DNA from: Candidatus Cloacimonadota bacterium
GTDB taxonomy: Bacteria > Cloacimonadota > Cloacimonadia > Cloacimonadales > Cloacimonadaceae
Assembly: GCA_029781115.1 (NCBI GenBank)
Contig: JAKOXG010000011.1
Span: 186,001 to 250,000, forward strand
Length of the DNA: 64,000 nucleotides
Reading direction: 5' to 3'
Position 1 is the first letter of the stretch. The number at the start of each line of letters is the position of its first letter. The translations under genes and the position numbers were made by a program. Of this stretch, positions 13,767 through 48,803 are shown in pieces. Under the pieces are notes generated by a model. The model was not told where the DNA came from, did not search any database, and saw nothing but the letters and a program-made list of their open reading frames with translations.

Positions 13767-16651
13767 GCCTCCTCCTTACTCTGCTTTCTCACTGCTTTTT
13801 GCAGTTCTGATCTGGTGATGCCTTGGGATTTGCGCTTATCATCCTGCGAGCTGCCTGTATGATAGCCAAATTCTATGCACTGGGAGAGAGTGGAGCTGAT
13901 CCGTTCGCGCCACTTATACCATTTCTTGGCCTTGGTGCCTTCCGCTTCGGGATTGCTCTCCAGCACCATCCAAAAGAGGGAGAGAATCTCTTTGTGCTGC
14001 TTCCACTCCTCGGGGTCTAAGGTCTTGTAAAAGTCGTAGTAATAATGCTCATAGAAGATGAGTTGATCCTCATCCGCGGAGCCGGTCTTGAAGTCGATGA
14101 TGTAGTCCTGGGCGGGTGAATGGATGCGCAGGTCTGCCCTGCCGCCAATCATCACCCGAAAGCCGAAATCAGCATCCAGGTTGCTCAGCTCAACGTAGCC
14201 GGTTCTGACGCTGCTGTCTTCAGGCAGCACCTCAAAGGTCGCATTCCTCAGGTTGGGCTCCAGCCAGCGGTAATAGAACTGCTGCACGCTGTCCACCAAA
14301 CAATCTGCGACCACTTCCAGGAGGAAGTCCCGGTTGTAGTTTTGCGGCATCTTGAAGTTCCAGTTGTCGCTTTCCAACAGGTCCATCAGCTCCTGTTTCA
14401 GCCCACCGGCATCGCCAAACACCGCCTCCAGCCTGCTGAGATCGCTGTTTCTCCCTGCCACCTTGCCCAGGATCCTGCCCATAAACTCATGTGTGATATT
14501 GCCAAAGAGCAGGGGACTGAGTGTTTCTTCCGGATGCAGCTCCACCGGCTCTATCCTGCGGTGTTTGGTGAGATACCAGGAGAAGGGATTGGAGGTGAAG
14601 TGACTGAGGCTGTAGGAGTTGAACCTCAGCTCGTTGCCAAAATCCTGCTCGCTAAAGGGCAGCACAAAGAAGTCAGCTGCGGGGCTGGGGGAGAAGTCAT
14701 ATTTCCCGGATTGCAGCAGCAGCGGATGCACGGATTCTTCTTGGTGAATCTTGCTTTGCGCTTGGCTGAGGAGAGCAGCGTCTATAGTGGGCTGGATGTA
14801 TTCCAGCGTAATCTGCTTTTGCAGCCTGGGCTCAGTGCGCAAAGGGTCAAGGTGCTGCATGAGCTCATTGAGGTAGGAGCTTGGTTCCAAGTCGTTTTCC
14901 TGCTCGCTGTAGCAGTAGAGGGTGGTCTTTTGGCTGCCCAGGATGAGCCTGAGGAAGTAATAGCGTTCCCAATCGCGGATAATGTCGTAGTTCTTGAGTC
15001 CCAGGCTGAGCTTCTGTGCCTGGTTCAGCAGCCAGACAGGCTCCGGGTTCTTGGGTAAAATGCCTTCCATGCAGTTGAAGACGATCACCTCGTCATAGCG
15101 GAGATTGCGGCTGTCCAGCAGGTTGCTGACCTGATACAAGGTTCTGTCTTTCTTGAGATTGCGCTCGACCTTACCGGCGGCTAAGAAGTCCAGCCACAGC
15201 TTGAAGATCCTGTGAGCAAGCTCGCTGTCCGCAGGAGCGAAGATGTTCTGCCAATCGCTCACGATGCCTAACTCTTCCACACTGAGGAAGTTTGCCAGCC
15301 TCTCATAAAAGCTGGAGATGATGTCTGTGGATTCATATTCTTCTGCGCTGCAGAGCCGCTCCAGCTTGATGCCTGACTCGCTGTCAAAGAGAGCTACCAT
15401 GTGTTTGATGCTGGTGATCTGCTGCAAAGCCTTGAGGATGGCAAAGTGAGCCCGCAGCAGGTTGCAGAGGTTGGCGAGGTCTTTGTCCTTAAGCTCCTTG
15501 AGCTCAAAGACTTTCAATCCCATATCTATATAGAGCACAGATTCTTTGGCCAAGAGGCGCAATTGATCCAAGAGCTGCTGCCTGTCCTGCAGGTTGTAGA
15601 TTTGGATAAATCCCGGTGTGGCAATCGCTTTGGTCACCTCCGAAAGCGGGAGATAGCTCTTTCCCTCATATTGTGCCAAGGCAGCCAGATGGCTTTCATA
15701 GAGCTTGAGCAGTGAGAAAAGCTGCGTCTTGGTCATGCTGATATTGCTGCCAAAGCCAAAGCGGATGGGATCGAAGAGGCGGCTGTAGCCACTTTGCTGC
15801 ATGCCGGCATCGATCAAGACCCGGCGCAGGGGCTTCTCTTCGGCCAAAAGTGCCTCTTTCTGCGAGCCGTAAGTGCTCAGGCAGCTCACGCTCATCTGCG
15901 CCAAGCTCTGGCAATGCACCACCTTCAGCTCTTGCAGTGCGATCTGTTCCGCAGGTATTTGGCTGAGCACCAAGGGCTTGGGCTCCAGGTTCACCTCATC
16001 AAAGCTGTCCGGGATACCCTGATGCAGGATCACGATTTCAAATCCCACCTCATCCAGCTTCCTGATCAGCTCTTTTTCCAGCTTGCTGTAGTGGTATTGA
16101 TTTACAAAGACCAGCTTTTGCGGTTTCTCCAGTGGGATCAGATTTGCCAGATCCAGGTAGAAGATGGCGTCGGAAAAGCCTTTTTCGTTGATGAACTCCT
16201 CATATCGCTTCAGGATGCCCAGCACCCGATCGATGTGCTGTTCCTGCCATTCGCGGGTATTGAGGTTGGGGTTGTTTTTCAGCGCAGACAGCGGCACCTG
16301 CTCATCTCTCAGCTCCCCAAAGAAGGTAAAGAAGCCATTTCCCCAGCTCACCAGGTCGTCATAGCTTTCCAGGTGGAAGGTGTCTTTATCCTCTTTTTCC
16401 AAGACCTGCCAGAGGCAAAGCAATCGCTTTTCATCGGTCAGAGCGGGCAAAGGCGGCACGATGAGCCAATTCACGAACTCCTGGATGGTAAACCAGCGGA
16501 TGCGCTGTAACTGCCACTGCGGCAAAAAGCTTTGGATAGCCCGGTTTTTGGCCGGATGAATGGGGAAGATCAAACAGCAATCATCAACTATCTGCTCCAG
16601 AGCCATGGAGTTGACGTCCTGATTGAAAGGCACATAGATGCATTTGAGCAT
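13763..16651 (-). CDS. addB: AddB-like helicase-nuclease subunit
   Basis: The 962-residue protein lacks a clear Walker A motif. It carries a C-terminal PD-(D/E)xK nuclease (GGRADLRIHSPAQDYIIDF then KTGSADEDQ, about 860-890), the usual plan of degenerate AddB subunits. The middle contains a helicase-like DEVIVFNCMEGILPKNPEP segment. I see no clustered C-terminal cysteines of the kind that hold the AddB iron-sulfur cluster, so the Bacteroidota-type variant seems likely. The ATG at 16651 follows a strong AAGGAG six bases upstream. It lies 18 bp after cls and overlaps addA by 4 bp, giving a cls-addB-addA unit. Confidence 0.82.
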   Translation of the reverse strand: MLKCIYVPFNQDVNSMALEQIVDDCCLIFPIHPAKNRAIQSFLPQWQLQRIRWFTIQEFVNWLIVPPLPALTDEKRLLCLWQVLEKEDKDTFHLESYDDLVSWGNGFFTFFGELRDEQVPLSALKNNPNLNTREWQEQHIDRVLGILKRYEEFINEKGFSDAIFYLDLANLIPLEKPQKLVFVNQYHYSKLEKELIRKLDEVGFEIVILHQGIPDSFDEVNLEPKPLVLSQIPAEQIALQELKVVHCQSLAQMSVSCLSTYGSQKEALLAEEKPLRRVLIDAGMQQSGYSRLFDPIRFGFGSNISMTKTQLFSLLKLYESHLAALAQYEGKSYLPLSEVTKAIATPGFIQIYNLQDRQQLLDQLRLLAKESVLYIDMGLKVFELKELKDKDLANLCNLLRAHFAILKALQQITSIKHMVALFDSESGIKLERLCSAEEYESTDIISSFYERLANFLSVEELGIVSDWQNIFAPADSELAHRIFKLWLDFLAAGKVERNLKKDRTLYQVSNLLDSRNLRYDEVIVFNCMEGILPKNPEPVWLLNQAQKLSLGLKNYDIIRDWERYYFLRLILGSQKTTLYCYSEQENDLEPSSYLNELMQHLDPLRTEPRLQKQITLEYIQPTIDAALLSQAQSKIHQEESVHPLLLQSGKYDFSPSPAADFFVLPFSEQDFGNELRFNSYSLSHFTSNPFSWYLTKHRRIEPVELHPEETLSPLLFGNITHEFMGRILGKVAGRNSDLSRLEAVFGDAGGLKQELMDLLESDNWNFKMPQNYNRDFLLEVVADCLVDSVQQFYYRWLEPNLRNATFEVLPEDSSVRTGYVELSNLDADFGFRVMIGGRADLRIHSPAQDYIIDFKTGSADEDQLIFYEHYYYDFYKTLDPEEWKQHKEILSLFWMVLESNPEAEGTKAKKWYKWRERISSTLSQCIEFGYHTGSSQDDKRKSQGITRSELQKAVRKQSKEEA

Positions 16652-18268: not shown

Positions 18269-18530
18269 GATAATAACAAGGCTGGATTTGTGTCAACAAG
18301 TTTAAATTGCCGCTGCCCAAATTGGGATAAAAAGTCTTAATATTCCACCTCAAAAACGAGCCGGCTGATGTTGGCTTTTGATGCGAGAGCGACTCCTCTG
18401 GCCTGGGGTGAGTCCACAAAGATTCACACTTCCAGGTTCCGTCGCCTTGCAAAGCCAACGCAGCCGGCTACACTCTCTCCTGAAAATTTCGCTATCACCA
18501 TCTCGAAGGAGACGATCAAAATACCACCAC
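18269..18530 (-). other. Intergenic region with a long inverted repeat; probable gene remnant
   Basis: Read on the minus strand, AGCCGGCTG...TTGGCTTT pairs with AAAGCCAA...CAGCCGGCT (18361-18469). The arms are about 19 bp with a bulge, and the loop is about 70 nt. The stretch lies directly downstream of an orphan promoter box. Where the sister copy has an ATG, this one has GGT and early stops. No credible gene is left. Confidence 0.45.
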
Positions 18531-18605
18531 TTTGATCTCCTCTGAGACAGCCTTCTATAACATTAGTGTCAAAACTGCCGATTTTGAGATGCTGGAATCG
18601 CAACT
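18531..18605 (-). promoter_or_regulatory. Conserved 75-nt promoter box, orphan copy
   Basis: It aligns without gaps to 39512-39586 at 62 of 75 positions. The conserved core contains AAAATCGGCA, TTTTGACACT and TTATAGAAG, and the box ends in GGAGAT. In the sister copy this drives a small ORF and the 2010-residue surface protein. Here it follows a sigma-like gene in the same order and spacing but has no surface gene behind it. The hexamer in the -10 place is TGTCTC instead of TATTCT, so it may have decayed. Confidence 0.7.
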
Positions 18606-18779
18606 TTTTTTGCTTTTGTGAAAATAATTTTGCATGAGGCGTCCCAAGGCCATGCCTATCTGTCTTTGTGTCAGTGTGTTATGCTGATTTGGAATACCGC
18701 AAAAAAAAGTTCACTTTTTTATTGCACTTTTCTCCCGAAGCCGGGTTTTCCCGGAAAACCGACAGTGAGAATCCACCCA

Positions 18780-18834: not shown

Positions 18835-19935
18835 TTATTTTCCCTTTAGCAGTGACATTATTTCCTGGTAATTCCAGAGAACCCTGCCTTTATCCACGGG
18901 GATGCGCATGTCTGGAGGAAGCTTGAACGAGCCAGCAACCTGATTGACTTTGAGGTCTTGGATAGAGATGCTGTTTCTTTCGTTCATAACGATATTGAAG
19001 GTGATCGCAAACGGCTCTTTATCCTCAAACAATGTAAATAGAAGCAGCTGATAGCGGTTTTCGCCCCTCATTGAGATCCCCCAATCGAGTATGTTTTTGA
19101 TTCTTTTCACCTCTTTGGCTTGCTCTGGACTCAGATGTCTCAGCCACTCTATCTTCCCGTCTCCGCCAAGCGTTTTCAGCATTTCGCGGATAAACTTCCG
19201 GATTGCGTTGTATTGATTGTAGTCCAAGATCCCAGGAGTATCGCGCCAACCCATGCTGAGCAGGGCTTTTGATTTCAGGTTGCGGATGATCTTTTCCTTC
19301 CTCTTTTGGGCTACCTTTTCGCTGATATCGTGAGCAGTAGCAAAGTCCCTGAGACTCTCAAAGGTCGTCAGTTCGTGATACTGCCGATATTCATCGGTAT
19401 CCAGAAGCTTTTCCATCAAAGTGGGATCCAGCTCTTTGAGTTCCATGGGGTCGCCGGATTCCAGCCACTTTGCATAGGATTGGGATTCCAGAGAGAGCCG
19501 GTTGTACAGCTTCAATTCTTTTTCGGTTTTTCCATGGTGAGCGCAAAGGAGGTTGTAAGTTACCTGGATCAGCCAAGCATTGATGTTTTCTACTTTCCGG
19601 GGAGACAGCAACAGCAATTTGATGGCTTCCTGGGCGATGTCGTTGGAAAGATCGGCGTCCTGAGTTTTATACATGCTAAACCGGTAACAATCTTTCTGAT
19701 AGCCTGCAAACACGTCATCCACCGCCTTGGGGAAAAGAGAATTGGCGACAAATTCTTGCGTCAGCTTTGCCGGATCCTGAGGCATGGAGCTGTCCAAAAG
19801 CTGCATTTGAGCGGCGTTTACGAGATCCGAGGACAGATCCATATTGCTAAAGGTCTGCGCTGCCAATTGGGCGATCTGCCCAAAGATGGCATCACTTTGC
19901 TCTTGGCCGATGTCAGCGATGTAATCCTGTTTCAT
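18835..19935 (-). CDS. ECF-sigma-factor-like protein with long C-terminal extension (paralogue A)
   Basis: I assign this 366-residue protein to the sigma-70/ECF superfamily by pattern. Region 2 is around residues 90-145: DLSNDIAQEAIKLLL, then INAWLIQVTYNLLCAHHG, which mirrors ECF D-x2-QE...AWL...N-L. Region 4 is around 195-225: LRDFATAHDISEKVAQKR..KIIRNL, a helix-turn-helix. A further ~140 residues of unknown function follow, ending WNYQEIMSLLKGK. The N-terminal 85 residues are also unusual for ECF factors. It has two relatives in the window (38175 and 46039). Its 116-nt upstream region is shared with the 46039 copy. It stands between the cls operon and repeat copy 2, followed by an orphan promoter box. 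Confidence 0.7.
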   Translation of the reverse strand: MKQDYIADIGQEQSDAIFGQIAQLAAQTFSNMDLSSDLVNAAQMQLLDSSMPQDPAKLTQEFVANSLFPKAVDDVFAGYQKDCYRFSMYKTQDADLSNDIAQEAIKLLLLSPRKVENINAWLIQVTYNLLCAHHGKTEKELKLYNRLSLESQSYAKWLESGDPMELKELDPTLMEKLLDTDEYRQYHELTTFESLRDFATAHDISEKVAQKRKEKIIRNLKSKALLSMGWRDTPGILDYNQYNAIRKFIREMLKTLGGDGKIEWLRHLSPEQAKEVKRIKNILDWGISMRGENRYQLLLFTLFEDKEPFAITFNIVMNERNSISIQDLKVNQVAGSFKLPPDMRIPVDKGRVLWNYQEIMSLLKGK

Positions 19936-38174: not shown

Positions 38175-39293
38175 ATGAAAAAAACTGACATCAAAGGCCT
38201 AAGCAAAGAACAAAGCGAAGCCATTTTTGGGCAGATCGCCAAATTGGCAGGGGAGACCTTTCTCAATATGGACCTGTCTCGCGATCTTGTCAAAGCCGCT
38301 CAAATGCTGCTTTTGAAGGACTCTTTATCTCAAGATCCGGCGGAGATCACCCAAGAGTTCGTCGCCAATACTCTTTTTCCCAGGGCGGTAAACAGCGTAT
38401 TTGCGGACTACCAGATTTATTGCCACCGCTATAGTTTGTCCAAGACCCAGGACCCCAACCTCTCTGAAGACATCGCCCAGGAAGCCGTCAAATTGCTGTT
38501 ATCATCCCCCAAAAGAGTGGAAAATATCGGTGCCTGGTTGATCCAAGTAACTTACAACCTCCTTCGGGCTCACTACAAAGAATCCAAGAAAGAAAAGAAG
38601 CTCTATCAAGAGCTCTCTCTGGAGGCCGGTTCCTATGAGAAATGGCTAAAGTCTGAAGACCTCATGGAACTCAAAGAGTTGGATTCCGCCATGGTGGAAG
38701 AGATGTTGAAAAGTGATGAATACCAACAGTATCATGAGATCATCTCATTTGACAGCATCAAAGACTATGCGGCTGCCCATAATATCAGTGAAGAAGTAGC
38801 CCAAAAGAGAAAAGAAAGAGCACGTCGCAACCTGAAATCAATGGTCCTGCTCAGCCTGGGCTGGCGCGATACCCCAAGTATACTGGACTACAATCAATAC
38901 AATGCAATTCGCAAGTTTATCCGCGAGGTGCCAAAAGTGCTAAAAGGTGAAGAGGAGGCAGAGTGGATAAAATCACTGAATTCAGACCATATAGAGGCTG
39001 TTAGAACAATAAAAACGATAGCTGATTGGGGAATTAAAACGCTGGGTGAGCGCAATTACAGGATTACTCTTTTTGCATTTTTAGAGGATAGGAAGCCACT
39101 TGGGATCACCTTCAATATCGTTCTGAGCAAGAGAAACAGTGTCTCTGTTCAAAGCTGCCTGGTCAATACACTTGCTGCCAAATTAGCGGTTGATGCAAAA
39201 GTTCGTGTTCCCGTTAATAGAGGCATGTCGATGTGGACTTTTGAGGAAATAACCACACTCCTGAAGAAAATTCATATAGCTCCCCTTGCCTGA
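38175..39293 (+). CDS. ECF-sigma-factor-like protein with long C-terminal extension (paralogue B)
   Basis: The 372-residue relative of the 18835 gene shares the same architecture. The N-terminus has EQSEAIFGQIAKLAGETF. A sigma region-2-like segment follows (LSEDIAQEAVKLLL; AWLIQVTYNLLRAHYKESK, about 95-145). A region-4-like helix-turn-helix (IKDYAAAHNISEEVAQKR, about 195-220) and a ~150-residue tail ending WTFEEITTLLKK complete it. The strongest conservation between paralogues is in the N-terminal 110 residues, region 4 and the GWRDTP.ILDYNQYNAIRKFIRE segment at about 235-262. It is followed by a terminator, then a 75-nt conserved promoter box, then a giant surface protein. That order suggests it controls the surface gene, by inference. 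Confidence 0.72.
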   Translation: MKKTDIKGLSKEQSEAIFGQIAKLAGETFLNMDLSRDLVKAAQMLLLKDSLSQDPAEITQEFVANTLFPRAVNSVFADYQIYCHRYSLSKTQDPNLSEDIAQEAVKLLLSSPKRVENIGAWLIQVTYNLLRAHYKESKKEKKLYQELSLEAGSYEKWLKSEDLMELKELDSAMVEEMLKSDEYQQYHEIISFDSIKDYAAAHNISEEVAQKRKERARRNLKSMVLLSLGWRDTPSILDYNQYNAIRKFIREVPKVLKGEEEAEWIKSLNSDHIEAVRTIKTIADWGIKTLGERNYRITLFAFLEDRKPLGITFNIVLSKRNSVSVQSCLVNTLAAKLAVDAKVRVPVNRGMSMWTFEEITTLLKKIHIAPLA

Positions 39294-39299
39294 CAGATT

Positions 39300-39332
39300 A
39301 TAGCCGGCTCACCCTGGCCGGCTTTGCTTTTT
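39300..39332 (+). terminator. Terminator of sigma-like paralogue B
   Basis: AGCCGG...CCGGCT stem (39302-39323) followed by TTGCTTTTTG, 8 bp after the stop. It separates the sigma gene from the surface gene, so the latter needs its own promoter. Confidence 0.8.
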
Positions 39333-39511
39333 GTGATATTACCGGAATTTCTCCTGCTTGTTTGGTAGAAAAAACCTCCTCTTCGAGGAAAGCTCCCAAA
39401 AGTGTGAGCTTAGTTTCTCTCCGCCCATTATCCCCTAACATACTGCCACTGTTGCAGATAACCTAAAGATAGCAGCGCCTGTCCCAAAACTAATATCGCA
39501 AAATCGAAAAT

Positions 39512-39586
39512 AGTTGCCATTCCAGCATCGGAAAATCGGCACTTTTGACACTTATATTATAGAAGACTATTCTAAAGGAGATGAAA
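39512..39586 (+). promoter_or_regulatory. Conserved 75-nt promoter box of the giant surface protein gene
   Basis: 83% identical without gaps to 18531-18605. It includes TTGACA (39545-39550), a 17-bp spacer and TATTCT (39568-39573), then AAAGGAGA. Upstream, AGTTGCCATTCCAGCATC and AAAATCGGCA are conserved, beyond what a housekeeping promoter needs; these may be the sites read by the sigma-like protein or an activator. Confidence 0.7.
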
Positions 39587-39588
39587 AA

Positions 39589-39801
39589 ATGAAAGAACCG
39601 ACCTTTTTCAAGCCGATGGAAGCTTTCAAGCTTTACATTGAAGAGACAGGAACAATGTTTGCACCTCTATTTCAGCGTCCCTTCTACCATTGTAATGGCT
39701 ATTCTCCTCTGCAGCACCGGGTACTGATATATAGACTGCAAGCATGTTTACAGCTTTGTAAGATACTGCTATCAGCAGAACAAAAAAGGAGAGAGACATG
39801 A
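39589..39801 (+). CDS. Possible small leader ORF, coupled to the giant surface gene
   Basis: A 70-codon frame starts at ATG 39589 with a strong AAAGGAGA seven bases upstream and ends in an ATGA overlap with the next gene. The product (MKEPTFFKPMEAFKLYIEE... ending LLSAEQKRRET) matches nothing I know. It may be a regulatory leader peptide or simply untranslated leader. The next gene has its own AAGGAGAG. Confidence 0.35.
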   Translation: MKEPTFFKPMEAFKLYIEETGTMFAPLFQRPFYHCNGYSPLQHRVLIYRLQACLQLCKILLSAEQKRRET

Positions 39802-42800
39802 AAAGATTGACGTCTTTGATCGTAGCGATTGCGGTTGGGCTCATCATTGGTCTCAACGCTCTTACGATTACAGTAGGTACGACGATGGAAACAGTTAGCC
39901 TATACCCGATCCATACCCAACGCAGCTACAATTACACCCAACAAATCTACACTCAGTCACAGATCAACCAACAAGGTGAGATCTCCAAGATCAGGTTTTT
40001 CCGTCACCACTCCGGTGAACTTGATAACAGCCACAATTGGGTGGTTTACATGGGGCATACCGCCCGCGATTTTTTCCCAAATACATGGGAATGTGTACCG
40101 GCAGATAGCCTCACGCAGGTATTCTCTGGCAGCCTTCTCGACAACTTTCCTGCTCCCGGACAGTGGATGGAGATCACTTTGGATACCCCCTTCAGCTATA
40201 ACAACTCAAACAACTTGTTGGTAGCTGTTTATGAAAACACGCCCGATTACAGCGAGACCGTGATGTGGGCTGGTTTTGACAGTGGCAATTATAGAGGCTT
40301 GTATTATGGCAGCAATAGCATAGATCCAGATGTCAATGCTCCACCTCATGCCAACCAAAGGTCAAGACGAATCGCCTCCATTCAATTTGTATTTACAGAT
40401 ACTGAGGCTCCCGTGGCACCCGCGCTGGTCTTTCCAGAAAACTACGCCACCATCGTGAATGGTCAGGCCTTGGAATGGGCTTTGCCTACTGGTACTGCAG
40501 ATGTAACTGGTTATGATGTGTATATTGATGGCACTCTGGTAAGCGATAACCAAGTGTCCAATCAGTACTTACTCACTGACTTGGAGTCTGGGCCTCATAC
40601 CTGGCACGTGGTTGCACGCAACGACATCGGCTCTTCGCCTCCCTCTGCAACGGGAAACTTTACCATCGCAACAGGTTTGATAATAGGCGATGGCACGCTG
40701 GAAGGTGTGTTGCCCGTCTATGCCTATCAAGATTACAGCTACACTCAGAGCATCTTTCTGCAATCTGAAATCAACATCAGCAATCAGCGCATTGAACGAA
40801 TCGCCTACTATTGGAATGGTGCGGGTGTGGGAACCAACACCAGCGATTGGAAGGTTTACATGGGTCACGTGCAGAGGAGCGGGTTTGACAGCATGTCAGA
40901 TTGGGTTCCCGTTAGCCATATGATACAGGTCTTTGATGGTCACCTGAATATCCCTGCCACACCCGGCTGGATAGAGATTGAATTGGACACCCCTTTCGTC
41001 TATAACAACATGGATAACTTAGTGATCGCCGTGGATGAAAATACACCCAATCACGATGGTAACAATCAACGCTTTTATAGCACGCCCACGCCAGACCAAT
41101 ATCGTAGCATCCATTACTATTACGGCGGCAGCAATCCTGACCCCGCCTCACCTCCTAACGGGTTCTTGCAGCCCGCATATCCCAATATCATGATTAAGTT
41201 CGGAGACCTGCCCACAAGTCCCGTTTTGGAAGTTATACCCCCAGGCTTAAACTTTGGTACGGTGATATATGGACAGCCCAACGAGCCACTTACCGTGATG
41301 GCTTCCAACATGGGAGGTGGGACTATAAACCTGACCGCTGCAGATGTTAGCCTCATAGGCCAGAATGCGGCTGAGTTTTCCTTTGATCCTGCAAACCTGC
41401 CCGCAACTTTGGGCTCTGGACAATATGTATTTATTCCGGTAACGGTGACAGGATTTACCACAGGCCAGGTCTCTGCTACCCTGCGCATTATCTATGATGG
41501 ACAAAACCATGATGTACACCTGACTGCAGTCGTCTCACCTGTCAACACTATCATGATAGGAAATGGCACCCAAGCGCAAGGATATCCTTTTGGAACGCTA
41601 TGGGGGTTTGAACGCTCTGCTTCCCTCTACACTGCGGATCAGATCGGCATAGTGGGCACTCTCGACATGGTAGCTTGGGATTGTGCCACCCCTGCCAACA
41701 TAAACATTCCCTACAAGATTTGGGCTAAAAACACCACCGAGACAGCCCTGACACCTCAAACCTGGCAGAGTTTTACCGCCGGTGCGACCCTGCTCAAACA
41801 GGGCACATTCACACCTAACACCTCGGGCTGGAAATCCTTTCAACTGGATACCCCCTTTAGCTATACCGGTTCGGGCTTGATCATCGCCATAGAAAGCAAT
41901 TATGGCGGCTCAGGTATAGAAAGTGATCACTCGTTTAGATATACCAACCTCGGTACACAAAGGCATCAGGTGTGGCGTTATGATAACAGTGAACCCACAG
42001 GTAACGGGTGGATTTACGCAGATATTCCCAATATCATGATGCACATTGCCACAGATGTTGAGGACGACCTCTGCGCTATAAACATCAGTGGCAGCCTCAC
42101 GCCCACAGTCGGACAAGAGACCAGCTACACCGTGCGCATAAGAAACAACGGCAGCATCAATCAAAGCAACTATCAGGTAAAACTGATGGGACACAATAAC
42201 GCTCAACTGGCGGTGGTGAACGGACCTCCGATAAACAGCGGCATGACTGCTGATGTAGAGCTCTTGTGGACGCCCACCGTCGTAGGCCCTACCACTCTCT
42301 GCGGCAAAGTGGAGCTTGATGGTGATGAAGTTGCCATCAACAACCAGACCGCTCCCGTGGCAGTAGATGTCCAACCCGCCGGCGTCGTGGCCGTTACTAT
42401 TGGTTCGGGTGATGAACTTGCCCGCATTCCCATGGACTTCTGGGCGCGCAACTCACTCTACGAGACACTGTATCTATCTGATGAGCTTGGCTTTACCACT
42501 GGCACCATCACCTCTATAGCCTTCTTCAACCAGTTCAACAACAATGTGGACATCGGAGCCACCAAGGTCTTCTTGGGAAGCACCACGCAAAACGACCTCA
42601 GTGGAGGCTTTATCCCTGCCACTGAATTGACCATGGTCTACGATGGAGACATATGCTATCCAAGCGGTAACAACACTATCCTCATTGACTTGCAAACACC
42701 CTATATGCACAGTGGTGGCAACCTGGTTATGATGATGAACCGTCCCATGAATGCCCCCTCCTACTCCTCAGGCGAAAACTTCAGATGTCAGACTATCGGC

Positions 42801-45800
42801 AACAACCGCGCTCGTAATATCTCAAGCGGGGGCATCACTATCGATCCCTACGACCCTCCCGAAGGATTACTCACGGGGCAGTTTCCAAAGACTACCTTCT
42901 ACTACACCTCGACTCTGATCGAAAACGACTTGGGCGTCGTAACCATCACCGGCAACACCTGTCCCACCGTGGGTGTACCCTCAACTTACACCGTTCGCTT
43001 GCGGAACCATGGCATAGAGGCTCAAGACACCTACACCGTAAAACTCGTGGATTCAAACAATGTGCAGCTTGCCAGCGTGGCAGGACCTCCCATCCAAAGC
43101 CAGCAAACAGTGGAAGTGGAGCTTCCCTGGACACCTACCACTCAAGGTAATTGCGCAATCTATGGAAAAGTGGAAATGGCTGGCGATCAAATCTCCAACA
43201 ACAACTTCACACGGCCTCTCAACCTCGTGGTCAGTCCCGCAGGAGTGTTGGCACTCACTGTGGGCGATGGCAATGAGAGTGCGCGCATACCCATTGATAT
43301 GTTATATAGACACTTCCTCTTCCAGAGCCTCTACTTTCCGGACGAGATGGGAGGCTCCATAGGAAGAATCACGGGCCTGAGGTTCTACAATCAATTCAAT
43401 AGCAACCTCGATGAGATACCCATCTCTATCTGGCTGGGTACCACCACGCAAAACAGCTTGGTTGAAGGGTTTATTTCCCCTATGGAGCTCACCTTGGTGT
43501 ATGATGGGCCGGTAGATTTACCCAGCGGAGACAACATCATCGACATCGCCTTTGATGAACCGTTTTTGTTCTTGGGTGACACCAACCTGGTGGTATCGGT
43601 CTACAAGAATAACACGAACCCCCTTCCACAGACAAACTGCTTCAAGTGTCAAACTGTGGGAACCAACCGCAGCAGAAAAGCGTCTTCATTCCATGCAAAC
43701 TTCGATCTCACGAATACTTCTTTGGGAACTCCCACTGGTCAATTCCCCATGACCACTTTCGTGACGGTACCGGGTGGAGTGGGGCAGATCTACGGGACTG
43801 TGACAGGTGCAAACAACCAACCCCTCAGCGGCGTGGCAGTAAGCCTCAATGATGGCGAATATTACACCACCACAAACGCTTCCGGACAATATCAACTAAC
43901 CAATGTCTTTACACAGGCCTACACCCTCTCCTTCAGCGTGCATGGTTATCACGAACACACTCAGACCTTGGTAATCGAATCTGACGATGAACTCACCATT
44001 GACGTGACCTTGCAGCTCTTGCCTCAAGTGAGCGTGACCGGAACCATCCTGGCCAGCGACTCTGGAGAAGGAATCCCCGATGTCCTGATTACGCTTAGTG
44101 GCTATGAGCCCTACAGCACCAATACAAACGCTGCAGGTGTTTTCACATTCCCCAACGTATTCGCTGGCCATACTTACGATTACAGCATCCGTGCCCGTGA
44201 CTACACTCCAATAAGCGGCCAGGTGACTATCGGCAACACAAACCACGACATGGGCCAAATCAATCTCATCGAAATACCTTACGCTCCCATGAGTGTAACT
44301 GCTGCAGTAAACGACATCGGCAACGCTGTCAATATCGCTTGGCTGGCTCCAGACTCCGACGCTATGGAGGTCGTCGAGAGCTTTGAAGACACTGAATTCC
44401 CGCCCACTGGCTGGACTCAAACCATCACCAACGAGAGCGCCCCAAACGCCGCGGGCATCTATCCCACCTGGTGCAGAATAGCTACCGTCACCGTCTTGGA
44501 CGAAACTATCACTCCCACCGAGGGCAGCTTCCAAGCCGGCTTGCACTGGGATTACAATCACCAGGACGAGTGGCTGATCACACCATCACTCAACTGCCCG
44601 CCCATTGCCTACCTCAGCTTTGACACCCACGCGTATTTCGGATCCGTGGATGGTGATCACCACTATGTGAAAGTCTCCACAGACAACGGCACCACCTGGA
44701 CAGTTCTCTGGGATGCTTCTGAGCAAACCGGCGGCTGGAACCGTTATTCCTCACCAGTTACCGTTGACTTGAGTGCCTACTCCGGTGAACAAATCAAGAT
44801 CGCCTTCCACGCCGAAGACCCACCTGACAACACAGGCCTCCGCTACTCCTGGTATATAGATAATGTCTACATCGGCTATGGCAGCGTTAGATTACAACTT
44901 GACTTGGATGGCTTTACCAGAGTGTCGGCAGACGGTAATCAACGTCGGGCTTTCGGCAATCTACCCCTCAGAGCAATGTCTCGCAGAGCAAAGGAAGGAA
45001 ATACCCGCGCTGAGCCCAGCGCACCGCGTCCTAACGAGGGTGACCTTGCGCACCGTTCGCCAAGGGTGCTGACCGGTTATATGGCCTACAGATTGCAGGC
45101 AGAACAAGAACAAAACGAAGGCACTTGGGAGGTATTGACGAGCGAACCCACCAATGCGCTCAGCCTCACTGATTCCGGTTGGGATGCGCTGCCAAACGGT
45201 AGCTACCTCTGGGCTATCAAAGCCATCTATACCAACGGCGTCACCTCTGTAGCCAGCTTCTCAAATATCATCAACAAGCATGCTATCACGGGAATTATAG
45301 CAGGAACTGTGAGACGTGAAAACGCCACCGGTATCGCTGGTGCAACCGTAACCAATGGAACCGAGACCACCACCACAAACTCTATGGGTGCCTACACACT
45401 GATCGTTCCCGTGGGTTGTCACTCGGTGACCGCATCTGCTGCGGGATATGCTGACCTGACCGTGGACGATGTGCCGGTCAACCAAGACCTCACTACCACC
45501 GTAAACTTTATCTTGGAGGAAGTGAGCAATGATGATAACCTGCTACCCGTAGCAGTTACTGCACTAAACGGCAACTACCCCAACCCCTTTAACCCTGAAA
45601 CTACCATCAGTTACAGCGTCAAGGAACCCGGGAAGGTAAAGCTGGAAGTCTATAACATCAAAGGACAACTGGTGAGAACCTTGGTGGATGAAGAGCAGGT
45701 TACAGGTCATTATAAACTGATCTTCGATGCGAGGGATGACCGTGGACGCCCCATCTCCAGCGGTGTATACATGCTGAAGATGGTAGCTCCCGGATACCGC

Positions 45801-45830
45801 AAGACATCCAAGATGATCCTCATGCAATAA
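39798..45830 (+). CDS. Giant secreted multidomain surface protein with FlgD-like/type IX sorting domain
   Basis: 2010 residues with a signal peptide (1-22). A ~180-residue beta-rich unit recurs near residues 25-200, 294-470, 585-750, 865-1035 and 1152-1320. Each has an IGDG/IGSG opening and a SYNYTQ or ESLY-type segment. Between them are a fibronectin-like domain (201-293), an ASPM/HYDIN-like domain (475-580) and two CARDB-like domains (754-860, 1042-1150). Carboxypeptidase-regulatory-like domains follow at 1329-1410, 1412-1500 and 1834-1905, and a choice-of-anchor-J/MAM-like domain at 1527-1695. The end (1925-2010) has NYPNPFNPETTISY...GQLVRTL...SSGVYMLKM, the FlgD-like sorting tail. Probably exported and fixed to the outer surface. 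A basic, low-complexity stretch (1712-1758) interrupts a fibronectin-like unit. It has a strong AAGGAGAG. Confidence 0.88.
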   Translation: MKRLTSLIVAIAVGLIIGLNALTITVGTTMETVSLYPIHTQRSYNYTQQIYTQSQINQQGEISKIRFFRHHSGELDNSHNWVVYMGHTARDFFPNTWECVPADSLTQVFSGSLLDNFPAPGQWMEITLDTPFSYNNSNNLLVAVYENTPDYSETVMWAGFDSGNYRGLYYGSNSIDPDVNAPPHANQRSRRIASIQFVFTDTEAPVAPALVFPENYATIVNGQALEWALPTGTADVTGYDVYIDGTLVSDNQVSNQYLLTDLESGPHTWHVVARNDIGSSPPSATGNFTIATGLIIGDGTLEGVLPVYAYQDYSYTQSIFLQSEINISNQRIERIAYYWNGAGVGTNTSDWKVYMGHVQRSGFDSMSDWVPVSHMIQVFDGHLNIPATPGWIEIELDTPFVYNNMDNLVIAVDENTPNHDGNNQRFYSTPTPDQYRSIHYYYGGSNPDPASPPNGFLQPAYPNIMIKFGDLPTSPVLEVIPPGLNFGTVIYGQPNEPLTVMASNMGGGTINLTAADVSLIGQNAAEFSFDPANLPATLGSGQYVFIPVTVTGFTTGQVSATLRIIYDGQNHDVHLTAVVSPVNTIMIGNGTQAQGYPFGTLWGFERSASLYTADQIGIVGTLDMVAWDCATPANINIPYKIWAKNTTETALTPQTWQSFTAGATLLKQGTFTPNTSGWKSFQLDTPFSYTGSGLIIAIESNYGGSGIESDHSFRYTNLGTQRHQVWRYDNSEPTGNGWIYADIPNIMMHIATDVEDDLCAINISGSLTPTVGQETSYTVRIRNNGSINQSNYQVKLMGHNNAQLAVVNGPPINSGMTADVELLWTPTVVGPTTLCGKVELDGDEVAINNQTAPVAVDVQPAGVVAVTIGSGDELARIPMDFWARNSLYETLYLSDELGFTTGTITSIAFFNQFNNNVDIGATKVFLGSTTQNDLSGGFIPATELTMVYDGDICYPSGNNTILIDLQTPYMHSGGNLVMMMNRPMNAPSYSSGENFRCQTIGNNRARNISSGGITIDPYDPPEGLLTGQFPKTTFYYTSTLIENDLGVVTITGNTCPTVGVPSTYTVRLRNHGIEAQDTYTVKLVDSNNVQLASVAGPPIQSQQTVEVELPWTPTTQGNCAIYGKVEMAGDQISNNNFTRPLNLVVSPAGVLALTVGDGNESARIPIDMLYRHFLFQSLYFPDEMGGSIGRITGLRFYNQFNSNLDEIPISIWLGTTTQNSLVEGFISPMELTLVYDGPVDLPSGDNIIDIAFDEPFLFLGDTNLVVSVYKNNTNPLPQTNCFKCQTVGTNRSRKASSFHANFDLTNTSLGTPTGQFPMTTFVTVPGGVGQIYGTVTGANNQPLSGVAVSLNDGEYYTTTNASGQYQLTNVFTQAYTLSFSVHGYHEHTQTLVIESDDELTIDVTLQLLPQVSVTGTILASDSGEGIPDVLITLSGYEPYSTNTNAAGVFTFPNVFAGHTYDYSIRARDYTPISGQVTIGNTNHDMGQINLIEIPYAPMSVTAAVNDIGNAVNIAWLAPDSDAMEVVESFEDTEFPPTGWTQTITNESAPNAAGIYPTWCRIATVTVLDETITPTEGSFQAGLHWDYNHQDEWLITPSLNCPPIAYLSFDTHAYFGSVDGDHHYVKVSTDNGTTWTVLWDASEQTGGWNRYSSPVTVDLSAYSGEQIKIAFHAEDPPDNTGLRYSWYIDNVYIGYGSVRLQLDLDGFTRVSADGNQRRAFGNLPLRAMSRRAKEGNTRAEPSAPRPNEGDLAHRSPRVLTGYMAYRLQAEQEQNEGTWEVLTSEPTNALSLTDSGWDALPNGSYLWAIKAIYTNGVTSVASFSNIINKHAITGIIAGTVRRENATGIAGATVTNGTETTTTNSMGAYTLIVPVGCHSVTASAAGYADLTVDDVPVNQDLTTTVNFILEEVSNDDNLLPVAVTALNGNYPNPFNPETTISYSVKEPGKVKLEVYNIKGQLVRTLVDEEQVTGHYKLIFDARDDRGRPISSGVYMLKMVAPGYRKTSKMILMQ

Positions 45831-46038: not shown

Positions 46039-46374
46039 ATGAAACGGGCTTATACAGCTGACATCAGCCAAGATCAAAGTGAAGCCGTCTTTGGGCAGAT
46101 CGCCCAATTGGCAACGCAGACCTTCAGCTATATGGATCTGTCCTCAGATCTCGTCAAAGCCGCTCAGGTGCAGCTTTTGGAGAGCTCTATATCCCAAGAT
46201 TCTGCAGAACTGACGCAAGATTTTGTCGCCAATACTCTTTTCCCAAAGGCGGTAGATAACGTGTTTGCGGGCTATCAGAAAGATTGCTACCGATTCAGTT
46301 TGTCCAAGACCCAGGACGCCGATCTCTCTGATGACATCGCTCAGGAAGCCATCAAATTGCTGTTGCTAAAATAG
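46039..46374 (+). pseudogene. Truncated ECF-sigma-like gene (paralogue C)
   Basis: The 111 residues match the first ~110 of the other two paralogues nearly throughout (QSEAVFGQIAQLATQTF; LTQDFVANTLFPKAVDNVFAG; LSDDIAQEAIKLLL). The frame then stops at LK-stop, inside the region-2-like helix. The rest of region 2, region 4 and the tail are gone; the next CDS starts 65 bp later. The 5' region is intact, so a short peptide may still be made. It would retain the N-terminal domain but no DNA-binding part. Confidence 0.8.
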
Positions 46375-46439: not shown

Positions 46440-48803
46440 ATGAAAGCATATTTGACTGTGATTATATTGATCTTCTCCGGGTTTCTTTGCTCTGTAACCC
46501 GCACAGTTTCCCTGGACGGATCTCAGCAGTTCACCTCTATTCAAGAGGCAGTTTCGGCATCATCATCTTATGACACAGTACTCGTCTACCCGGGCAGATA
46601 CTTTGAAAGCATTACGATCAGCAATGACAACATTAGTTTGGTTAGCTTGGAGGAAAGCACCGGTGCTGCAGCATACATAGATTCAACCATCATTGATGGG
46701 ACTCATACTGTTGGTGGTATTATGGTTAACCAGCACAAGACCGGAATCCTGATCCGCGGTTTCTCTATTGCCAATGGAATAGGCGGCGGAGTGGTACTTA
46801 GCATTTCATCGGAAGCAAGGGTTACCAACTGTAAAATCTTCGGCAGGACAGCACGGAATGGAGCGGGAGTGAATGTGGGGGGAGCATCAGTGTATCTATC
46901 GGGAGTTGAAATATATGACAACTATGCTTTCGGTCTTGGCGGCGGACTATATGCATCGGAGCCCACAGGCTATCCTTGGAACATCACTTTCGATCCTGTC
47001 AATCGCTGTTCTATATACAATAATCGTGCCGGATCTGGCCAGGACATATACATACAGCAAGCACGCAGTGACCTGGATCTGCCCCTGGATACTTTTTCCA
47101 TAGCAAATCCTGATGGATACCATGCGATTTATCTGAGTTATAGATCCAATGACGAACTCTATCATATCAATTTTGATATCCTGAATGCGCATCATCAAGA
47201 GCTTGATTGTGACATCTATGTTTCTCCTACGGGTGACGACGGCAACGATGGTTTGAGCCCCGAAACTGCCCTAAAAACCATCCACAATGCCATTTATTTA
47301 GCCGCCTCTGATAGCCTGAAACCGGTCACGGTGCACATCCTGCCGGGCGTATATTCCCGCACCGATAACGACCAAATCTTTCCCATTGCTCTTAAAAGTT
47401 GGGTTATCCTGCAAGGTGGCGGGATTGATGCAACGAACTTGGTCTTGGAGCCTCATCCTGTTTTTATCGATGGTTATAGACACCAAGACATAACATTTCA
47501 TGCCAACAAAGTGAATGGTGCAACTGTTGCCAACATGAAGCTTACGTCAAGAGACACATATAGTTCTGGCGTATTATCAGGTTCGTATAGTACAATCAAT
47601 TTAAAGAACATTTATATCACTTCATTTTTCTCGGATCACAGCCACATTATCACGCTTTTTACGAGCAGTGAACGAGAGACTGTCTGGGACAATGTTACCT
47701 TTGAAAACATCGTCACATCCGAGGCTGGTCTAATATATATCGATTTGGGTTTTTGGGGCTCAATTAGAAACTCCAGATTCCTGAATATTGAATCAACCTT
47801 CCAATCAGCATCCATAGGAACCCAATTGATTACCATTCACGCGGATAAGTCGTTTGAGTTTGAGAACTGCCAATTCAGCAATCTAAGCCTGCAAGATGAT
47901 GATTCTATCGCCATTGCCGTAGCCTGGATACAGTTCCCCCAACAACAAAACCAGTTTGCACTCCGGAATTGCTTATTTAGCGATAGCTATTCCCAGTTCG
48001 GGCTTGCAAGCGTAGTTGGCAGAAATAACTCTCTTGTTGATATTACCAACTGCACCTTCGCAGGGAATCAGGGCAATAACTTCACTCTGCAGGTTGGTGC
48101 GAATGTGAATATAAGCAATTCCATCTTCTACAATGATACACCCTACCAGATCAGAGAATATCCCGGGTTTGAATCCCCAAATGAGCACGGCAGCATCACC
48201 ATAGACTACTCCTTGGTTAAAGATGGTGTTAACGGCGTCTTGTCGTCTCCGATACCAGGAAGTAGCTTGAACTTCCTGCCCAGCAGCATTGATACCGATC
48301 CTCTCTTTCTGGGTGGATATGACATCAACAACCCGCTGTATTACAGCCTTTCCGCCGTCTCACCCTGTATCAATACCGGCACACCTGATACCGCCGACTT
48401 GAATTTGCCGCCCTATGATCTGGCAGGTAATTGGCGCATCTGGGATGGGCAGATAGATATGGGCTGCTATGAATATGGCAGCGAACCCTGGGTGAGTGTA
48501 GATGATCCCACCATCCCAGAAGCACCTTCGGTAAGTCTGGAAGCCTGGCCCAATCCCTTCAAGGTTTTTACCAATATCAGGGTCAACATGGAAAAAGCCC
48601 AGAGTGCCAGTATCTCTATCTACAACATCAAAGGGCAGAAGGTGAAAACCATCGCACTTGATTCGCAAAAAAGCGGTGAGCAGCATACATATTGGGATGG
48701 CAGGGATGCCGATAACAGGCAATGCTCCAGCGGGATATACCTGATCAATCTGCAAGTAAATGGCAGAAATGTGAGCAATAAGAAGGTGACGTTGGTGAGG
48801 TAG
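46440..48803 (+). CDS. Secreted right-handed beta-helix protein with FlgD-like/type IX sorting domain
   Basis: 787 residues with a signal peptide (about 1-20). The first half reads like a parallel beta-helix (FTSIQEAVSASSSYDTVLVY; repeated N/I-x-N patterns). A DUF1565-type start, YVSPTGDDGNDGLSPETA, is near residue 258, and more helix turns run to ~650. The end (about 701-787) has EAWPNPFKVFTNIRV...NIKGQKVKT...SSGIYLINL, the sorting tail. Such proteins are often polysaccharide lyases or adhesins, but no catalytic residues can be identified. It has CAAGGAG upstream. It follows the broken sigma-like gene and lacks the 75-nt promoter box. Confidence 0.87.
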   Translation: MKAYLTVIILIFSGFLCSVTRTVSLDGSQQFTSIQEAVSASSSYDTVLVYPGRYFESITISNDNISLVSLEESTGAAAYIDSTIIDGTHTVGGIMVNQHKTGILIRGFSIANGIGGGVVLSISSEARVTNCKIFGRTARNGAGVNVGGASVYLSGVEIYDNYAFGLGGGLYASEPTGYPWNITFDPVNRCSIYNNRAGSGQDIYIQQARSDLDLPLDTFSIANPDGYHAIYLSYRSNDELYHINFDILNAHHQELDCDIYVSPTGDDGNDGLSPETALKTIHNAIYLAASDSLKPVTVHILPGVYSRTDNDQIFPIALKSWVILQGGGIDATNLVLEPHPVFIDGYRHQDITFHANKVNGATVANMKLTSRDTYSSGVLSGSYSTINLKNIYITSFFSDHSHIITLFTSSERETVWDNVTFENIVTSEAGLIYIDLGFWGSIRNSRFLNIESTFQSASIGTQLITIHADKSFEFENCQFSNLSLQDDDSIAIAVAWIQFPQQQNQFALRNCLFSDSYSQFGLASVVGRNNSLVDITNCTFAGNQGNNFTLQVGANVNISNSIFYNDTPYQIREYPGFESPNEHGSITIDYSLVKDGVNGVLSSPIPGSSLNFLPSSIDTDPLFLGGYDINNPLYYSLSAVSPCINTGTPDTADLNLPPYDLAGNWRIWDGQIDMGCYEYGSEPWVSVDDPTIPEAPSVSLEAWPNPFKVFTNIRVNMEKAQSASISIYNIKGQKVKTIALDSQKSGEQHTYWDGRDADNRQCSSGIYLINLQVNGRNVSNKKVTLVR

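Follow-up and report, generated by a model that had tools for sequence, protein, structure and literature searches.

What does a sigma-like protein control when a conserved sequence box and the gene for a giant surface protein lie behind its own gene? The question arises at 38 to 46 kb of the window, the whole 64,000-nucleotide stretch of DNA analyzed here (G000:C10:186001-250000), which belongs to a Candidatus Cloacimonadota genome of 2.25 Mb in 22 contigs. Cloacimonadota are anaerobic, largely uncultured, and little-known. An initial annotation, made from the window alone, had proposed that the sigma-like gene, the box, and the surface protein gene form a regulatory cassette with a partial counterpart at 18.5 kb, and that each sigma-like protein activates a surface protein of its own. 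From comparison with related genomes, we consider it probable that the whole is best explained by an extended extracytoplasmic function (ECF) sigma factor, a cognate promoter in the box, a small exported protein (here called the peptide), and exchangeable cargo genes. The features concerned are as follows.

38175-39293, forward strand: ECF-type sigma factor of 372 amino acids (aa) (NCBIfam ECF models over residues 72-225, PDB profile matches to SigW, SigH, and SigL, and AlphaFold2 models).
39302-39323, forward strand: intrinsic terminator (GCCGGC) behind the 372-aa sigma gene (pattern scan; 8-pair stem, T-rich tail).
39510-39587, forward strand: conserved, putative promoter box (profile match, E value of 5e-17; 22-box alignment).
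39525-39529 (GCATC) and from 39547 (GACAC), forward strand: proposed -35 and -10 blocks of this box, from clade comparison.
39798-45830, forward strand: predicted secreted surface protein of 2010 aa with a type IX secretion system (T9SS) type A sorting domain.
18835-19935, reverse strand: paralogous ECF-type sigma factor of 366 aa, with 59% identity to the 372-aa protein.
18529-18607, reverse strand: paralogous putative promoter box (profile match, E value of 1.8e-16).

Both proteins had been described as resembling ECF sigma factors with an extra N-terminal domain and a long tail, and profile and structure comparisons agree. Full-length ECF models of NCBIfam (e.g., SigM_subfam and SigZ) matched residues 73-224, covering regions 2 and 4, and a profile of the sigma family matched the known structures of SigW (68-217), SigH, and SigL. 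Regions 2 and 4 are present and region 3 is absent, as in ECF factors. The window protein alone scored under the Pfam Sigma70_r2 cut-off (13.5 versus 24 bits); the same model matched 20 of 25 family members (best E value, 4.9e-9), and the Pfam region 4 model matched only one (E value, 0.013). In the 372-aa protein, an N-terminal helical segment (residues ~1-65) precedes region 2 (~70-140) and region 4 (~170-225), and a C-terminal domain follows at ~228-372. AlphaFold2 models contain the extra helical segment and build the C-terminal domain, of ~140 aa, from helices and then a four-stranded sheet. Fold comparison of the full model ranked SigG1 first. Fold matches of the C-terminal domain included NTF2-like proteins, none with an E value of ≤0.001 and most with a template modeling (TM) score below 0.5; Pfam SnoaL did not match this domain, and a sequence search with it against the PDB gave nothing useful. 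We take the 372- and 366-aa proteins to be ECF-type sigma factors with an extension of uncertain fold. The C-terminal domain may regulate the sigma factor.

The two window boxes are identical at 62 of 75 ungapped positions (82.7%), in line with the 83% first reported; the next best 75-mer in the window, on either strand, reaches 36/75, and a genome-wide search recovers the second box with an E value of 5e-19. The paralogy, the GCCGGC terminator, both boxes, and the sorting-domain gene are likewise all present. The window boxes lie 217 and 230 bp from the stop codons of their sigma genes. In most relatives, from several genera, the box begins no more than ~10 bp from the sigma stop codon; the window loci and genomes G002 and G034 share the longer distance (217-344 bp). 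Downstream of the box come a Shine-Dalgarno sequence and a start codon. Boxes are located downstream of sigma genes, not in front of them, and positive autoregulation from the box was accordingly not found. At an E value of ≤0.01, a profile of the 22 aligned boxes matches this genome at only four sites: two in the window, one on contig C2 (280 bp upstream of the gene for an 1825-aa sorting-domain protein), and one on contig C19 (preceding a small open reading frame [ORF] and then two sorting-domain genes). The boxes on C2 and C19 have no adjoining sigma gene; all four sites follow sigma genes or lie in front of genes for cargo and peptide.

We surveyed 50 family genomes for the box, the peptide, and their co-occurrence with sigma genes; 18 contain box sites. 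The box sequence persists even between loci whose sigma proteins share only 31-39% identity and whose flanks differ, and its conservation reaches ~40 nt upstream. Across genera, its occurrence goes with sigma genes and with genes for secreted proteins, so this part of the initial annotation stands: sigma similarity was found, and the boxes are not scattered at random. Fifteen of the 16 related records are Cloacimonadota metagenome-assembled genomes, and the remaining one is labelled Firmicutes. Locus L196 (G034:C33, 9311-10450, reverse strand) has a box without a sigma neighbor, 177 bp before a formylglycine-generating-enzyme-like gene (FGE-sulfatase domain).

Distant sigma clades keep the sigma-peptide pair and carry their own, internally similar motifs before the peptide: TTCTGGGGAACCTTTTTC then GGAACTAATCTATAAA in one, CCGTCTAANATATAAACG in another, and GCGGTAACCTTTT then ACACTAATA in a clade that belongs to a different family within the order. 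Promoters of distant clades include the classical ECF elements GGAAC and CGTCTAA; the standard cores of the ECF -35 and -10 elements are AAC and CGT (PMC8103513). The blocks GCATC and GACACTTATATATATAG of the window's own clade are positional counterparts of the distant clades' elements, and we therefore read the box as the likely promoter of its own sigma clade.

Of the family genomes, the 15 that encode the close sigma clade all contain the box, versus 1 of the 35 that do not (P = 7e-12; P = 5e-5 when shuffled within genera). Much of this co-occurrence is linkage. Boxes without a sigma neighbor, counted by hand, were found in 7/15 versus 1/35 genomes (P = 4e-4), a pattern that fits action in trans. 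Because the C2 and C19 boxes precede secreted-protein genes with no sigma neighbor, control is probably exerted in trans as well.

In relatives, an ORF of ~69 codons lies behind the box, at Shine-Dalgarno/start-codon distance, and encodes a hydrophobic leader and a conserved mature part (consensus, roughly DY..I...LPvYtGSL.DP.VKIVYED..G.YvfVEYeGVLYvfYL). Comparison of two species shows changes in the 49 mature codons at 4 first, 4 second, and 30 third positions, indicating strong purifying selection. We conclude from these differences that the peptide is a real, strongly constrained protein; its leader suggests that it is exported. The family is absent from Pfam and NCBIfam. A peptide profile, built like the box profile from the close sigma clade, found it in 25 of the 50 family genomes. 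It lies within 1 kb downstream of 26 of the 54 sigma genes that have at least 700 bp of sequence behind them, and in some distant relatives its gene is divergent, in front of the sigma gene. We sought remnants of the peptide at both window boxes and found none; both loci are without it, and C19 of the same genome retains it. We conclude that both window loci lost the peptide.

The 2010-aa protein matched TIGR04183 with 34.3 bits (cut-off, 23) and PF18962 with 29.1 bits (cut-off, 27), and the genome encodes an SprA-like protein (SprA_N match). A T9SS tail is carried by the first complete same-strand gene behind the sigma gene in 13 of 29 cases; the whole genome has 96 T9SS-tail matches, or ~5% if it holds some 1900 genes (an estimated number). 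Cargo of another kind follows the sigma gene, box, and peptide at L061 (G031:C76, 7766-14205), where a radical S-adenosylmethionine/SPASM maturase of the type acting on ribosomally synthesized and post-translationally modified peptides, a 732-aa protein, an ATP-binding cassette exporter, and a 220-aa protein form a possible modified-peptide export operon. The claim that each sigma factor switches on its own surface protein is not supported in that form. Behind the 18.5-kb box there is no surface protein; a phospholipase D-like gene follows the box and a folding stretch and has its own sigma-70-like promoter. Strict one-to-one control is likewise not supported by the two boxes on C2 and C19, which precede sorting-domain genes without a sigma gene, or by relatives, where the first gene is usually that of the small exported protein. 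The remaining features of the two loci are these.

39589-39801, forward strand: 70-codon ORF or leader in the peptide's usual place, not homologous to the peptide.
18345-18560, reverse strand: strongly folding stretch behind the 18.5-kb box (-85.1 kcal/mol; z, -3.6), with no peptide and no cargo gene.
46039-46374, forward strand: truncated third sigma copy of 111 codons, ending in TAG (E value to the 372-aa protein, 6.6e-41).
46440-48803, forward strand: second sorting-domain protein, 787 aa, beta-helix type (PF18962 and FlgD_ig above cut-off).

ORFs or leaders of 70-82 codons similar to that at 39589-39801, and likewise unrelated to the exported peptide, stand between box and giant surface gene at L016 (6482-6730, reverse strand) and L057 (9324-9572, reverse strand). 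The putative ORFs at 39589, on C2, and on G005:C73 are alike at the DNA level and vary in length. The folding stretch (216 nt) is far more stable than shuffled sequence and terminates in a GC-rich stem and then GTTTTTG, which is terminator-like. The box may give rise to it as a short non-coding transcript, or it may be a remnant. The truncated sigma copy is ~79% identical to the 366-aa paralogue (105 residues) and sits 66 bp before the second sorting-domain gene. Contigs C21 and C22 start inside a further sigma copy, with the same match (G000:C21:3-185, L019; G000:C22:3-185, L018). Sigma copies of several relatives also reach contig ends, and near-identical copies may break assemblies.

Taken as a mechanism, an ECF-type sigma factor regulated through its own C-terminal domain would bring RNA polymerase to the box as the promoter that it recognizes. 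Where the arrangement is the widespread one, transcripts initiated at the box would start just before the ~69-aa exported protein and could continue into exchangeable genes, often those for large T9SS-secreted surface proteins. The 38-46 kb locus would be a cassette without the peptide in which the cargo was retained, and the 18.5-kb locus would have kept the sigma gene and promoter alone. At boxes elsewhere in the genome, the same sigma proteins may act in trans. Sigma homology, the conservation and position of the box, the peptide family and its selection, the sorting-domain linkage, and the co-occurrence are direct observations; binding of the sigma factor to the box, transcription of the cargo from it, control of the sigma factor by the C-terminal domain, and the nature of the signal are predicted.

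Several observations weigh against this mechanism. The elements GCATC and GACAC differ from the classical ECF ones, and simple common descent may explain some of the variation of promoters by clade. Some boxes lie in front of genes without an obvious connection, such as an accA-like gene in L198 and restriction-modification genes in L199. The L199 genome (G018:C2) has two boxes (1052-1101 and 14456-14535), one of them that before the restriction-modification genes, and no detected sigma gene; these boxes may be remnants, or a sigma gene may have been missed in an assembly that is 87% complete. For about 20 of the 54 sigma genes, neither a peptide nor a box was recovered within 1 kb, which is in part a consequence of using profiles derived from the close clade.

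The exported peptide and its sigma factor might together make up one self-contained signalling or export-checkpoint module, an idea that we hold only tentatively. The peptide, made from the sigma factor's own promoter and leaving the cytoplasm, would report on export (or on neighboring cells) and control the sigma factor through its C-terminal domain; the genes behind would be interchangeable outputs, mostly T9SS surface proteins and in one case (L061) the radical S-adenosylmethionine/SPASM maturase with its ATP-binding cassette exporter.

It is unlikely that the box is an ordinary housekeeping (sigma-70) promoter before peptide and cargo, with the adjoining sigma-like protein acting elsewhere or inactive. 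The window box does contain TTGACA-17-TATTCT, with 10 of 12 matches; however, shuffled sequence averages 1.1 such matches. TATTCT varies among the boxes, conservation reaches ~40 nt upstream, and the box tracks the presence of the sigma clade and shifts in sequence with it. We rejected the housekeeping promoter because its second hexamer is not conserved.

Slightly less likely again is a duplicating or mobile sigma-box-peptide repeat, in which recent copying or gene conversion, and not a role as promoter, would have made the boxes alike. Genomes do carry several sigma copies, one is truncated in the window, and the contig-end copies on C21 and C22 have identical starts. Against this reading stand the retention of the box between such diverged sigma proteins and flanks and the strong purifying selection on the peptides, and no transposase or integrase was noticed, by inspection only, beside the window copies. 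Copying and promoter function are compatible.

A 5′ untranslated RNA element in which pairing of TTTTGACAC with GTGTCAAAA would mask the ribosome-binding site is very improbable and was rejected: many boxes hold this inverted repeat, and 79.8% of pair cells form versus 28-55% for slid versions, but covariation is no greater than in shuffles (one double change, reached by 268 of 500), and the window loci keep the first arm without the second.

The extended ECF sigma factor with its box promoter can be set beside known systems. In cellulosome-forming clostridia, the SigI/RsgI systems likewise comprise a set of sigma paralogues, each linked to proteins that are secreted or on the surface; SigI differs in not being an ECF factor of this kind. 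SigP also connects an ECF sigma factor to type IX secretion, but it regulates genes for T9SS components, downstream of PorX/PorY, whereas the linked genes here are T9SS cargo and the sigma factor has extra domains and several linked copies. SnoaL-extended ECF groups (ECF41, ECF56, and others) have regions 2 and 4 plus a C-terminal extension (PMC8999054). The likeness lies in these regions, an extension of 120-150 residues, SigG1 as best fold match, and the lack of a visible adjoining anti-sigma gene; only peptide and cargo recur as sigma neighbors in gene maps, not all neighbors having been searched for anti-sigma domains. In contrast, the extension here has no significant SnoaL match in sequence or fold, there is an additional N-terminal segment, and the partner gene encodes a small exported protein. 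The locus had been put forward as a candidate undescribed system. The cassette is indeed real and conserved across genera; its content is larger, since it includes the peptide, and an ECF factor with an extension beside its targets is already a known kind. In the open-licence literature, we found no description of the peptide partner, of a box behind rather than before the sigma gene, or of recurrent association with T9SS cargo, and none of Cloacimonadota sigma factors, of their T9SS, or of small secreted peptides accompanying sigma factors.

The analysis yields a switch open to experimental test, consisting of a sigma factor, a promoter, and a predicted four-site regulon in this genome, and adds a family of small exported proteins that is new to curated libraries. 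Sigma clades with diverged promoters are candidate orthogonal expression parts. For the organisms themselves, the finding bears on the question of how Cloacimonadota choose among the ~100 T9SS-sorted proteins that each genome encodes.
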